Below, piece by piece: positions 41,257 through 47,076 of a stretch of 64,000 bases of DNA. The stretch comes from Methanosarcina sp. DH2 (GTDB taxonomy: Archaea; Halobacteriota; Methanosarcinia; Methanosarcinales; Methanosarcinaceae): the NCBI RefSeq assembly GCF_020804225.1, contig NZ_WJBI01000019.1, forward strand, positions 1 through 64,000, written 5' to 3'. The notes beneath the pieces were generated by a model that saw only the letters and a list, made by a program, of their open reading frames with translations, was not told the DNA's origin and searched no databases. A program made the translations under genes and the position numbers. Within the stretch, counting starts at the first letter, position 1. Each line of letters starts with the position of its first letter.

Positions 41257-41328
41257 GGGCTCGTAGATCAGGGGAAGATCGTTACGTTCGCAACGTAAAG
41301 GCCGCGGGTTCAAATCCCGCCGAGTCCA
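41257..41328 (+). tRNA. tRNA-Ala(CGC)
   Basis: A complete cloverleaf. Acceptor stem GGGCTCG/CGAGTCC with the G3-U70 pair that identifies alanine tRNAs, discriminator A at 41328, a D arm around TAGATCAGGGGAAGATC, anticodon stem TTACG/CGTAA with loop TTCGCAA (anticodon CGC), and a T arm GCGGG-TTCAAAT-CCCGC. No CCA is encoded and no intron is seen. It starts 64 bases after the aEF-1B stop. Confidence 0.95.
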
Positions 41329-42367
41329 TTAATTAAGTAATCAGAGTCGAGTTTCCACGATCGGAAACTCCATTTATCATTCTGAATTCGCTATCCAGAA
41401 AATCAATTTTGAGTTTTTGGATTGGTTCTATCAGTACTGAATGAAAAAAACTCTTTTTGAATCTCTTGAAACTTTTTTTAGATATTTTAAATTCTTTCTG
41501 ATTTTTCTTTTTTCGATGGACATCAGACGGGCTGGTGGTTGCGTCTTCAGCAGGCATAATTTCAGGAGTATTTGATGCTGGTTGCTAAGGCTTAAATTGA
41601 TATAAGTGATAATCAATATAACTGGGTTACACTGTTAATTTTTTATAGACATTTTAAAAATCTATCAGATTTTTGAAGGAATATATTTCCCTTATGATTC
41701 CGATAAAGGCAAAGACACATTGTTTAACTTTCTAAAAATAGCAAAGAATTAAATACAAATAACTCTTTTTAAATATTAGTGTGGTTATCCCACGCTAGAA
41801 TAACCCCCTCAGATGGCCAGGGAAAGTTGAAGCTCCCCCTGGCCACTCTAATATACAAAACTCTTTTTAAAGAGAGAATTTTTCAGTTGAGCTTTTCTAT
41901 CTCGTGGCGTTTTAAGCTTATATTTTAATTCTCTTTTATTGCTTTTGCTTTCTTGATGTTTGTTTTTCTGAAAAAACAATATAAACATAGTTAACTATTA
42001 TAAAAAGTTCCTTAAATTTTTTACCCAGAAAAAAATATTTATAAAACATCAGGTTTAATTATTTATAGATCTTAACTTTTAAAAATCCGGTAACACATCA
42101 TATGCTTTTTAAATAATGGATACATAACAGACCAGCGCATATTTTTTTTACAACCCCTATATATCGGATTGAAGGGAATAAATAGCGGAAAAATGGGAAA
42201 ATCCGCAAAAGGCTATTTTTAACCCTGTTTTTAAGTGAAAATTGATTTTTCACTCTGAGATATAGAGACTAAGGCAAAAAGTAAAAAATGGGGGACTGGA
42301 AGTTATTAAGAGTAACAGCTTTCCCGGGAAGAAAGAAGAGGCTGGAGAATTAGAACAGGAAAATTCA
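41329..42367. other. Gene-free kilobase between tRNA-Ala and the sensor kinase
   Basis: No convincing coding sequence; the minus-strand frames at 41333-41616 are lysine-rich low complexity. The strongest element is the structured block at 41773-41853. Near the kinase, AATATTTATAAAAC (about 42034-42046) is a possible TATA element; the leader of the kinase mRNA would then be about 300 nucleotides. Confidence 0.5.
41773..41853. ncRNA. Candidate structured RNA with a three-way junction
   Basis: An outer stem (ATATTAG at 41773-41779 with CTAATAT at 41847-41853) encloses two hairpins. The first is GGTTAT/ATAACC (41783-41788 with 41800-41805). The second is a perfect 9-bp stem TGGCCAGGG/CCCTGGCCA (41814-41822 with 41837-41845). 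The block is GC-rich within very AT-rich DNA and is flanked by direct repeats AACTCTTTTTAAA at 41761-41773 and 41859-41871. It may be a small RNA or a small non-autonomous mobile unit. The strand is not known. Confidence 0.45.
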
Positions 42368-45300
42368 ATGGCGATTCATGAAAAAATAACAGAGCCCCTC
42401 CCTTCAGAGAACCCTAATCCTGTTCTCAGGGTAGGAAAGAATGGAAAGGTTCTTTATGCCAATAGAGCAGCCTGCTTTCTTCTTGAGCACTGGGGCATAA
42501 AAGAAGGAGAAGAGCTTCCTCAATCACTGGGGCACGGTATAAGAAGGATTCTTTCGCAAAAAAAGCCTGAAAACCTTGAAATCAACATTGGGAGTGCTAC
42601 ATATGCTCTAAAGCTTTATCCTCATTCGAAAGATGGATTCACAGATATCTATGGGTTTGACATAAGCTACAGAGTACGGGCTGAAGAGAAACTTATGTCT
42701 CAGCATGAGAGATTGGAAAAACTTGTTGGGCTGAGGACCTTTGAGTACGTAGAAGCAAACGAGAAACTTGCACAGGAAGTAACCGAGAGAAAGAGGATTG
42801 AAAAGACCCTTCAGAATAATCTTCAGTTTCTTGAAACACTTCTTGACAACATTCCAAGCTCTGTATTCCAGAGAGACCTTAATGAGATTTATGTGAACTG
42901 TAACGAGAGTTTTGCCAGGAAAATTATGGGTCTTCCAAAGGAGATGGTTATAGGGGGATCATTCTCCGAGTTTCAGAAGAGAGTTCCAAAAGAACTGGCT
43001 GAGATATATTATAAACATGACAGGGAACTTCTCAATAATGGGGGAAGCCATTACTACGAGACCAGGGTTATCTGCGCTGACGGCGTAAGCAGAGACTTTC
43101 TGTTTCATAAGGCCACCTACGAAAATAGTTCCGGAGAAATTGCCGGAATTGTGGGCGTAATGCTGGATATTACTCCTCGCAAAGAAGCTGAAAAATTTTT
43201 CAGAAAAAGTGAGGAGAGATATAGGATTGTTGCCGAGCAGACAGGCCAGCTAGTTTATGATTATGAGACTGAATCAAAACAAATTGACTGGGCTGGAGCG
43301 ATCCCGCAGCTTACAGGCTGCAGTCCTCAAGAGTTCAAGCAGGTAGATATGGAAAGCTGGATAGAACACATCCATCCTGAAGACCGCGATAAGGCACGGA
43401 AAGCACATGAAAAGTGTATGAAAAACGGGGGGAGATATCTTGAAGAATACAGGTTTAGAAGGAAAGACGGAAGCTACTTCTATGTAGAAGATAATGGCGT
43501 GTGCCTTCAGGATAATCTTAACCAGGTTTACCGGGTTGTCGGAGTAATAAAAGATATTACAGAAAGAAAATTCGCCGGAGAAATTCTCGAGAGAAGCGAG
43601 GAAAGATTCCGCATAACAGCAGAACAGACCGGGCAACTCGTTTATGATTATAATGTTGAAAATAATCACAGTTCGTGGGCAGGAGCAATTGAAGAACTTA
43701 CAGGATATAGTTTTGAAGAGTTCCAGGGCTTCACTCCCGAAGTATGGGCTCAGCACGTTCACCCTGAAGACCGGGAAAAAGCAGTAAAAGCCCATGAAGA
43801 GTGCATTAAGAATGGGGGGAAATATTTTGAAGAATACAGATTCAGAAAAAAAGATGGAAGCTACATCTGCGTTGAAGATGGCGGAATTTACCTGAAAGCC
43901 GAAAATAGAGGCATATGCAGGGTTCTCGGGGTAATAAAAGATATCACTGATAGGAAACTTGCTCACAATAGACTGGAACAGAGTGAGAAACGCTACCGTT
44001 TAATCGCAGAAAAAACTAAAATGCTTTTATATTTCGATAACTATGCGGATGACAAAACTGATTGGGCAGGAGCAATTCCTCAGATTACAGGGTATAGTTA
44101 TGAGGAGTTCCAGAAAGTCAGAGTTAATGATTGGATGTGCCTGATTCACCCGGAAGACCTCCAGAAGGTAAGGGCTGCTCACGAATATTGTATGCATTAT
44201 GGGGGTGATTTCTATCAGAACTACAGATTCAGGAGAAAGGATGGAAGTTACTTCTATGTAGAGGATGAGGGAGTTTACCTGAAAGATGAAAAAGGCTGCG
44301 TGTATTTGGCAGCCAGAGTGATAAAAGACATCACGGAGAAGAGGTCTGCACAGGAAAAGCTTCTGGAAAGTGAAGAAAGATTCAGGATAGCTGCCGAGCA
44401 GACCGGGCAGATAGTATTTGAACATGACCACCGGGAGAAAAATATCAAGTGGGCAGGCGCTATCCAGGATGTCACGGGGTATACAGTAGAAGAATTTAAT
44501 AAACTCGGCAATTCATGGGCAGATCATATTCATCCCGAAGACAGGAAAAGAGCGCTTGGTGAACTCAGGACATTTCAAGAAAAAGCAAATAACTTCCGTG
44601 TTGAGTACAGGTTCAGGAAGAAGGATGGGAGCTATATCCATCTGGAAGATAGCGGAGTCTATCTGAGGAATAAAAACGGAAGCATTCGAAAAGCTTTCGG
44701 AGTAATGAAAGATATTACAGGCATAAAACTTGCTTCGGAAAAACTGAAAGAAAGTGAAGCGCGCTACAGGTCCTTTATGAAAAACTTCAGAGGAATTGCT
44801 TTCCAGATGGGGCTTGATTTCAACCTGATCCTCATAGACGGCAGTATAGAAGAGACTACGGGGTACAGAAGAGAGGACTTTATTTCCGGAAATGTTAACT
44901 GGTACCAGATTGTTCATCCCGAAAGCATGAAAAGTCTTTTTGATAATAGGGATAAATTGATAAAAGATCCATTGCTCTTCATAGAACATGATTACAGAAT
45001 AGTACACAAAGATGGAACAGTAAAGTGGGTCCGCGAGGTTTTTCAGAATGTTTTCGATGCTACAGGGAAAAATAGAATTTTGCAGGGTGCGGTTTACGAT
45101 ATAAGCAAACAAAAAGAAGCTGAAGAATCTCTTGCAAAAGTGGAAGAAATCCGTAAAAAGGAAATACATCACAGGATTAAAAATAATCTGCAGGTAATCT
45201 CAAGCCTTCTTGAACTTCAGGCAGAAAGATTTGACGATACGGAAGTTCTGGAAGCTTTTCGTGAGAGCCAGAACCGTGTTGCTACAATGGCAATAATCCA

Positions 45301-45859
45301 TGAGGAACTTTACAGGTCAAGAGATAATGAAACCATGGACTTCTCAGCTTATCTTCAGAAACTGACGTCGGACCTGTTTCACTCATACACTGTCAGAAAA
45401 GGGAATGTCAATATGCAGCTCGATATTGAAGAAATTTTCCTGGGAATGGATACTGCGGTTCCTCTGGGGATAATTATCAATGAGCTTGTATCCAATTCCC
45501 TGAAGCATGCATTTCCCTCAGGCAGGAGAGGAGAAATTCGTATCAAACTTTGCAGGATAGAAGAAAATGCCGAGAATAAAAGTATAAGTAATAGCACTAA
45601 TAATATTGGTGCTAAGAGTTCAGTTGACAAAAATATCCAGTACACACTGGTAGTTTCGGACAATGGGTTGGGTTTTCCGGAAAACGTTGATTTCAGGAAC
45701 ACAAACTCTCTGGGCCTGCAACTTGTAAATATACTTGTCGAGCAGCTGGAGGGTACGGTTGAACTTGAAAGCGGTTCAGGGACTAAATTCAAAATCTGGT
45801 TTAAGGAGCCCTGCCAGTCATCTGAAAATGTATCCAGTATCAAAGGGGAGATACAATGA
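42368..45859 (+). CDS. Cytosolic histidine kinase with seven PAS domains
   Basis: A 1163-residue sensor kinase without membrane helices. PAS-like domains lie at about 1-110, 155-280, 283-400, 409-525, 538-655, 668-785 and 795-915. The four between 283 and 785 are very similar to one another (AEQTGQLVYDY, WAGAI..LTG, HPEDR, YRFRxKDGSY), so they arose by internal duplication; PAS_3-type domains may bind haem or flavin. The catalytic part is HisKA_2 (EIHHRIKNNLQVISSLLELQAERF, histidine near 934) and HATPase (NELVSNSLKHAF near 1035, DNGLGF near 1096). It is translationally coupled (four-base overlap) to a response regulator. The signal is unknown. Confidence 0.93.
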   Translation: MAIHEKITEPLPSENPNPVLRVGKNGKVLYANRAACFLLEHWGIKEGEELPQSLGHGIRRILSQKKPENLEINIGSATYALKLYPHSKDGFTDIYGFDISYRVRAEEKLMSQHERLEKLVGLRTFEYVEANEKLAQEVTERKRIEKTLQNNLQFLETLLDNIPSSVFQRDLNEIYVNCNESFARKIMGLPKEMVIGGSFSEFQKRVPKELAEIYYKHDRELLNNGGSHYYETRVICADGVSRDFLFHKATYENSSGEIAGIVGVMLDITPRKEAEKFFRKSEERYRIVAEQTGQLVYDYETESKQIDWAGAIPQLTGCSPQEFKQVDMESWIEHIHPEDRDKARKAHEKCMKNGGRYLEEYRFRRKDGSYFYVEDNGVCLQDNLNQVYRVVGVIKDITERKFAGEILERSEERFRITAEQTGQLVYDYNVENNHSSWAGAIEELTGYSFEEFQGFTPEVWAQHVHPEDREKAVKAHEECIKNGGKYFEEYRFRKKDGSYICVEDGGIYLKAENRGICRVLGVIKDITDRKLAHNRLEQSEKRYRLIAEKTKMLLYFDNYADDKTDWAGAIPQITGYSYEEFQKVRVNDWMCLIHPEDLQKVRAAHEYCMHYGGDFYQNYRFRRKDGSYFYVEDEGVYLKDEKGCVYLAARVIKDITEKRSAQEKLLESEERFRIAAEQTGQIVFEHDHREKNIKWAGAIQDVTGYTVEEFNKLGNSWADHIHPEDRKRALGELRTFQEKANNFRVEYRFRKKDGSYIHLEDSGVYLRNKNGSIRKAFGVMKDITGIKLASEKLKESEARYRSFMKNFRGIAFQMGLDFNLILIDGSIEETTGYRREDFISGNVNWYQIVHPESMKSLFDNRDKLIKDPLLFIEHDYRIVHKDGTVKWVREVFQNVFDATGKNRILQGAVYDISKQKEAEESLAKVEEIRKKEIHHRIKNNLQVISSLLELQAERFDDTEVLEAFRESQNRVATMAIIHEELYRSRDNETMDFSAYLQKLTSDLFHSYTVRKGNVNMQLDIEEIFLGMDTAVPLGIIINELVSNSLKHAFPSGRRGEIRIKLCRIEENAENKSISNSTNNIGAKSSVDKNIQYTLVVSDNGLGFPENVDFRNTNSLGLQLVNILVEQLEGTVELESGSGTKFKIWFKEPCQSSENVSSIKGEIQ

Positions 45860-46269
45860 AAAAGGCAAAAATTCTGGTCGTTGAAGACCAGAACATCGTC
45901 GCTCTAAACATCAGAAACAAGCTCAAGAACCTGGGTTATACTGTACCTGGCACTGCATCCACAGGAGAGGAAGCAATTAGAAAAGCGGAGCTGACGAATG
46001 CGGATCTTGTTTTGATGGACATCATGTTGAAAGGGGATATGGATGGAATTGAAGCTGCCCGTGAAATAAAAACCCGCCTTAAAATTCCTGTACTATATCT
46101 GACCGCTTATACTGACGATGAAACCCTTGAAAGGGCTAAAATGACAGAACCGGCAGGATATATTTCCAAACCTTTTAAAGAAGAAGACCTGCACAGCAAT
46201 ATTGAGATGGCGCTACATAAACACAGAGCCGAAAAAAAAGAAATTGAGAGCTCCAGTAGTGATGAATAA
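45856..46269 (+). CDS. Single-domain response regulator, coupled to the kinase
   Basis: A 137-residue receiver domain with no output domain. The phosphorylation site is D55 (LMDIML), with acidic residues E10 and D11, T83 (YLTAYT) and K105 (ISKPF). Its ATG overlaps the kinase stop by four bases, so it is very probably a phosphoacceptor of that kinase. Without a DNA-binding domain it must act by protein contact or pass phosphate on. About 20 extra polar residues follow the receiver fold. Confidence 0.94.
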   Translation: MKKAKILVVEDQNIVALNIRNKLKNLGYTVPGTASTGEEAIRKAELTNADLVLMDIMLKGDMDGIEAAREIKTRLKIPVLYLTAYTDDETLERAKMTEPAGYISKPFKEEDLHSNIEMALHKHRAEKKEIESSSSDE

Positions 46270-46677: not shown

Positions 46678-47076
46678 ATGGACAAAGCAAAAATTCTGGT
46701 CGTTGACGATCAGAACATCGTGGCCCTAAACATTAGAAACAGGTTAAAAAGCCTGGGGTATGATGTTCCCACTACTGCTATTTCTGGGGAAGAGGCAATA
46801 AGAAAAGTAGAGCTTACAAACCCTGATCTTGTTTTGATGGACATCATGTTGAAGGGAGATATGGACGGGATTGAAGCAGCCCGGATCATCAAATCTCGCT
46901 TTTCAATACCTGTTATTTACCTTACTGCTTATACTGATATTGAAACCCTGGAAAGGGCAAAACTAACAGAGCCTGCAGGGTATATTTCTAAACCCTTCAA
47001 CGAAGAGGACCTTTACAATGAGATAGAAGTGGCTATCCATAAAAACAGGTCAAAAAGAGTAGATGAAGGAAAATAA
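46678..47076 (+). CDS. Single-domain response regulator, paralogue
   Basis: A 132-residue receiver domain, a near duplicate of the preceding regulator (shared AKILVVxDQNIVALNIRN, LVLMDIMLKGDMDGIEAAR, LTEPAGYISKPF). Catalytic residues D10, D11, D55, T83 and K105 are intact. It is separated by 408 bases from its twin, so it probably has its own promoter and may compete for the same kinase. ATG with GGGGTGGAAA just upstream. There is no output domain. Confidence 0.93.
   Translation: MDKAKILVVDDQNIVALNIRNRLKSLGYDVPTTAISGEEAIRKVELTNPDLVLMDIMLKGDMDGIEAARIIKSRFSIPVIYLTAYTDIETLERAKLTEPAGYISKPFNEEDLYNEIEVAIHKNRSKRVDEGK

Follow-up and report, generated by a model that had tools for sequence, protein, structure and literature searches.

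A conserved block at positions 41761–41871 of the 64,000-nucleotide stretch of Methanosarcina sp. DH2 DNA analyzed here (the window) very probably encodes, judging from its sequence, a small regulatory RNA (sRNA) of about 90 bases. The reading we favor, with a confidence somewhat above even, is that of an intergenic, trans-acting sRNA with its own promoter, whose linker would block translation at selected Shine-Dalgarno regions, the mRNA of a dienelactone hydrolase (DLH)-family lipoprotein being the best-supported target. Comparison of genomes supports a conserved RNA-like unit, a strand bias, linkage to an operon and conserved complementarity.

The block occupies an AT-rich gap bounded by a tRNA-Ala(CGC) gene (41257–41328) on one side and the gene of a large PAS histidine kinase on the other. 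The features identified or predicted at this locus are as follows.

41743–41756, + strand: predicted archaeal promoter, with BRE and TATA box, AAAGAATTAAATAC
41761–41773, + strand: first copy of AACTCTTTTTAAA, a conserved spacer from the predicted TATA box to the start site
41777–41797, + strand: 5' hairpin, SL1
41798–41813, + strand: single-stranded C-rich linker GAAUAACCCCCUCAGA, the predicted seed
41814–41845, + strand: GC-rich, terminator-like 3' hairpin, SL2, UGGCCAGGG...CCCUGGCCA
41859–41871, + strand: second copy of AACTCTTTTTAAA, confined to this genome among the 12 compared and not a functional part
41864–41868, + strand: T-run, predicted 3' end of the RNA
42105–42119, + strand: separate promoter-like block of the kinase gene, CTTTTTAAATAATGG
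42305–45859, + strand: PAS histidine kinase gene adjoining the RNA, with a probable AUU start at 42305 (ATG 42368 in the open reading frame list)
45856–46269, + strand: single-domain response regulator, in the same operon as the kinase

The preliminary description of this DNA had reported a GC-rich block within a 1-kb AT-rich gap, flanked by 13-base direct repeats and folding into a three-way junction that includes a perfect 9-bp stem. The sequence bears out the block, the stem (UGGCCAGGG/CCCUGGCCA) and the exact repeats of AACTCTTTTTAAA; when the gap was shuffled 200 times, a repeat of 13 bases within 130 bases arose only twice. The + strand folds at -33.5 kcal/mol (z -4.8), an energy that none of 200 dinucleotide shuffles equaled. 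Of the proposed junction, the two internal hairpins stand, but the outer stem (ATATTAG/CTAATAT) does not: it belongs to the minimum-energy fold of the - strand, is absent from that of the + strand, and, like the second AACTCTTTTTAAA copy, occurs in the DH2 genome alone among the 12 orthologs. As read from the alignment, the conserved unit is a pair of hairpins with a single-stranded linker between them.

Mean pairwise identity across the 12 genomes rises from 0.43 upstream to 0.85 over the block CAAAGAATTAAATACAAAT (41742–41760) and 0.92 over the first AACTCTTTTTAAA, remains at 0.85 in SL1 and 0.93 in the linker (41801–41814), and declines to 0.73 in SL2, then to 0.50–0.53 and finally 0.36 downstream. 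Conservation therefore begins at the TATA-like block and stops after SL2, with the linker nearly invariant; in the + strand folds of most orthologs this linker is unpaired. Variants of the promoter-like block stay AT-rich and TATA-like (TTATATAC, TTTATAG and TTTTATAG), and because the box is retained in them we place the predicted transcription start about 25 bases further on, at the base of SL1 (approximately 41777–41780). T-runs also lie 3' of SL2, at roughly the corresponding position, in several other orthologs. Among the 11 aligned orthologs, 92% of cells are paired in SL1, and the 9-bp stem of SL2 has 99% of its cells paired, every pair-keeping substitution there being a wobble change. 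In genome G008 little of either hairpin is left and the linker is intact, and this copy is possibly dying; separately, a T-rich spacer, AATTCTTTTTAAA, is tandemly duplicated upstream of the RNA in that genome. A peptide-coding reading was considered and rejected, since an early stop in G010 and G023 interrupts the frame opening at GTG 41780, which is not maintained across species.

The suggestion that the block could be a small RNA is strengthened by this conserved, promoter-like element, by the bias of pairing toward the + strand and by a hairpin followed by a T-run. Pairing is retained in most orthologs: 93.4% of the cells in the two hairpins are paired on the + strand, compared with 81.7% in the equivalent - strand stems, where many substitutions that give G-U pairs on the + strand produce A-C mismatches. 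Covariation in the 11 aligned orthologs is weak, with one pair showing a double-sided change, no better than shuffles. Since such changes are almost absent, the pairing supports the strand rather than strong covariation. A functional transcript from the - strand would have the more stable fold in the DH2 genome (-40.5 kcal/mol, z -4.6 against dinucleotide shuffles, versus -33.5 kcal/mol); however, across species the corresponding stems are less well paired, and conservation is lacking on the side where its promoter would sit, which makes this reading very improbable.

The other origin proposed for the block, a MITE-like insertion with 13-base target duplications, drew on the exact direct repeats at its edges in the DH2 genome. 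It fails because the second AACTCTTTTTAAA copy and the outer stem occur in that genome only, one of the 12. Moreover, the block is present as a single copy in each genome, with the same neighbors in all carriers that could be read, and the single repeat copy expected in strains lacking the block was not seen, the regions retrieved from RNA-lacking genomes containing no AACTCTTTTTA motif. We regard an insertion of this kind as extremely improbable.

A search of other Methanosarcina genomes with a covariance model, which had been proposed as a check, was carried out with a model built from 11 orthologs. In agreement with the DNA search, it located the RNA in 12 of 31 genomes, one copy each and on the modeled strand; the 4.6-Mb DH2 genome contains a single copy. 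Across the family outside the genus Methanosarcina, no convincing match was obtained (best E = 5e-4). Among the carriers is M. mazei (G009), assigned by a PylRS identical over 454 residues, in which the RNA locus (G009:C1:2747146-2747223, - strand) again lies between tRNA-Ala(CGC) and the kinase gene; the RNA start is predicted there 24–28 nt 3' of AATTAAATAC. On a PylRS tree of 26 genomes, the carriers comprise the mazei/acetivorans side together with G012, which branches close to the base of the other clade, and RNA presence needs three changes. This distribution is compatible with one old gain followed by losses.

In carriers with readable surroundings, the RNA lies upstream of the kinase/regulator operon and on the same strand, even in G007 and G010, where 4–7 kb separate it from the tRNA. 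Its distance to the kinase start is about 300–660 nt in carriers where that start could be located. A close match to the regulator (at least 86% identity) is found in 30 of the 31 genomes, so most RNA-lacking genomes retain the operon; in several of them it is still beside tRNA-Ala with no RNA between. G024 lacks the RNA as well as any close match to the regulator; both are present in its sister G025.

Such linkage might mean that the kinase mRNA begins with the block, as a cis-acting leader in which SL2 and the T-run, which resemble a terminator, act as an attenuator of the operon. The constant position upstream on the same strand would fit. The kinase, however, has its own conserved TATA-like block (CTTTTTAAATAATGG) and a leader near its start, which recur with small changes in carriers and RNA-lacking genomes alike and speak against the RNA as its 5' leader; the stretch between the RNA and the kinase also varies in length and is not conserved (0.36 identity downstream of the RNA). 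We therefore consider a cis-acting role unlikely.

Several further observations concern the operon itself. The kinase probably starts at AUU 42305 rather than at ATG 42368: many relatives have a G-rich Shine-Dalgarno sequence 8–9 nt before ATT AAA, several have no ATG, GTG or TTG within 100 codons, G019 has a stop codon directly before the ATT, and ATG 42368 is ATA in several relatives. Conservation of AUU as a start codon would be unusual in Archaea. The kinase leader contains a conserved stretch at 42163–42224, ATAGCGGAAAAATGGGAAAATCCGC...GGCTATTTTTAACC, that may form a hairpin. The response regulator is 95–100% identical in most carriers and its kinase only 55–85%; a second, similar response regulator lies at 46678–47076. 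Elsewhere, in three closed genomes, a conserved inverted repeat, GAACGAGCGAG...CTCGCTCGTTC, lies about 23–26 kb from the start of the contig and encloses TGGGGGGGTTA.

Candidate targets of the favored trans-acting sRNA were sought with the reverse complement of the linker in six carriers, including the DH2 genome, as patterns and in selected stretches. In the DH2 genome, the exact 11-base complement TGAGGGGGTTA has just two occurrences, the RNA gene itself and the ribosome-binding site of a 309-aa DLH-family lipoprotein. This site, UGAGGGGGUUA, stands just before the AUG and is exactly complementary to the linker sequence UAACCCCCUCA. In M. mazei, TGAGGGGGTTA occurs at the RNA, at the hydrolase ortholog (306 aa, MSRTRLLIVIMLLLSFLSASGC...) and at one further place, and G011 and G012 have the same site at the hydrolase.

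Matches to the hydrolase came from 18 genomes, and in 15 of them the gene start was comparable. The longest Watson-Crick run with each carrier's own linker was 12 in M. mazei, 11 in G000 and G011, 10 in G020, 8 in G001, 7 in G007 and G012, and 6 in G023 and G008; the two carriers with runs of six or fewer use a different hydrolase leader. At the hydrolase site of the six genomes without the RNA, the longest run was 4–6. The resulting comparison, seven of nine carriers versus none of six non-carriers, involves related carriers and a target found by complementarity search and does not represent independent trials. RNA-lacking species keep a G-rich hydrolase site, with the extended complementarity absent; for example, G019 reads TTTTGGGGGGTAAATGAATTTCATG where G011 reads CTTGAGGGGGTTAAATGAATTTCATG. 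Among carriers, the four-C linker of G020 faces a four-G site (10 bp), and in G012 four C face five G. Across the 112 genomes of the family, the full site preceding an ATG was matched 15 times. Among the matches opened, the hydrolase was the only gene matched more than once, and only in carriers; the full site precedes its ATG in 4 of the 112 genomes, all of them carriers.

The hydrolase was not found in carriers G010, G025 and G027, two of which are incomplete assemblies, and it therefore cannot be the sole target. Five further orthologous pairs between the DH2 genome and M. mazei have GAGGGGG before the ATG and are, by sequence, weaker target candidates. It is possible, though in our view doubtful, that a conserved + strand sRNA has its main role elsewhere, acting on the neighboring kinase or on other GAGGGGG mRNAs, and that the hydrolase match reflects shared ancestry and chance. 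Besides the five pairs, the position of the RNA some 300–660 nt upstream of a kinase whose ribosome-binding site reads GGGGGA would suit this reading, as would the joint absence of RNA and close regulator match in G024. Against it, the DH2 genome has no full 11-base match besides the RNA gene and the hydrolase site. The kinase was rejected as the main target: its site reaches only -12.4 kcal/mol, a value attained by 9% of random 40-base stretches, and GGGGGA is also found in RNA-lacking genomes.

We infer transcription, the RNA ends, binding and the sign of regulation for the favored sRNA as follows. An RNA of about 90 nt would be transcribed from the + strand, from approximately 41778 to 41868, under its own promoter, and would consist of the 5' hairpin, the exposed C-rich linker and the terminator-like 3' hairpin. 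The linker UAACCCCCUCA would pair with the Shine-Dalgarno region of selected mRNAs, the hydrolase mRNA being the best supported, and the pairing would block translation initiation. Because the 11-base match recurs in the DH2 genome only at the hydrolase, is kept at the ortholog in M. mazei and another species, and is not matched by extended complementarity in RNA-lacking species, translational masking appears the best mechanism, and the linker probably covers the Shine-Dalgarno region and represses hydrolase translation. In bacterial sRNAs such as RsaE, exposed C-rich seeds cover G-rich Shine-Dalgarno sequences; the candidate likewise exposes a C-rich segment with complementarity to G-rich ribosome-binding sites, but is archaeal. 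We know of no dependence of the predicted archaeal RNA on an RNA chaperone.

Considered against the characteristics of archaeal intergenic sRNAs, the candidate has the sequence hallmarks of an independent gene (an intergenic location with a conserved TATA-like block directly upstream), a conserved stable structure (folding energy beyond shuffles and stems kept in most orthologs, with weak compensatory changes) and complementarity to a distant mRNA in several species, at the hydrolase ribosome-binding site. Searches of the window against Rfam returned only tRNA-Ala at gathering scores, and a local search to E = 5 gave a single chance-level match.

Three M. mazei sRNAs invite comparison. sRNA154 has stable hairpins, and an anti-ribosome-binding-site sequence in its loop 2 masks the glnA2 site (PMC5867862); it is about 130 nt long, lies between MM3337 and MM3338 and has a potential NrpR operator, GGTA-N6-TACC (PMC3177094), and it contains a 20-aa leaderless ORF at nt 4–66 (PMC11456600). 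Both are intergenic Methanosarcina RNAs with stable hairpins, the transcript here being predicted. However, the predicted RNA is about 90 nt long, no GGTA-N6-TACC operator was found on reading the promoter region of the block, and no conserved ORF was seen in the alignment of the predicted RNA; identity with sRNA154 was rejected, as length, operator and ORF do not fit its published features.

The second, sRNA41, is likewise intergenic and represses translation by masking ribosome-binding sites, with acetyl-CoA decarbonylase/synthase (ACDS) genes as reported targets (PMC5867862). The mode of action proposed for the RNA described here would resemble that of sRNA41 and of sRNA154 on glnA2. In the two M. 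mazei regions that contain ACDS genes, a single cdhB copy (-16.2) was conspicuous within the complex; such regions as a whole were not enriched (median -9.4 versus -9.7 kcal/mol for other genes). Judged by these reported targets, identity with sRNA41 is possible but not supported.

The third, sRNA162, also has stem-loops joined by a single-stranded linker; it is 191 nt long with three stem-loops and lies in the MM2441/MM2442 gap beside an ArsR-family gene (PMC3510493). Its linker is its most variable part, whereas the linker here is among the most conserved, and the published features of sRNA162 do not fit. The M. mazei dRNA-seq list may already include a transcript of the block.

Taken in full, the proposal is that an undescribed Methanosarcina sRNA, inherited beside a PAS kinase/regulator operon, represses a surface lipoprotein hydrolase through an anti-Shine-Dalgarno seed that changed together with its target, as the four-C linker and four-G site of G020 would illustrate; we advance this complete version tentatively, as less probable than not. 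Few archaeal sRNAs have a known target, and the present candidate comes with a precise target prediction in genetically tractable species, including M. mazei. Carriers differ from RNA-lacking genomes at the target site, which provides a natural contrast. The sRNA may be the RNA output of, or a partner to, the neighboring two-component system, and the proposal, if true, would describe a regulatory RNA tied to a two-component operon in a methanogen.
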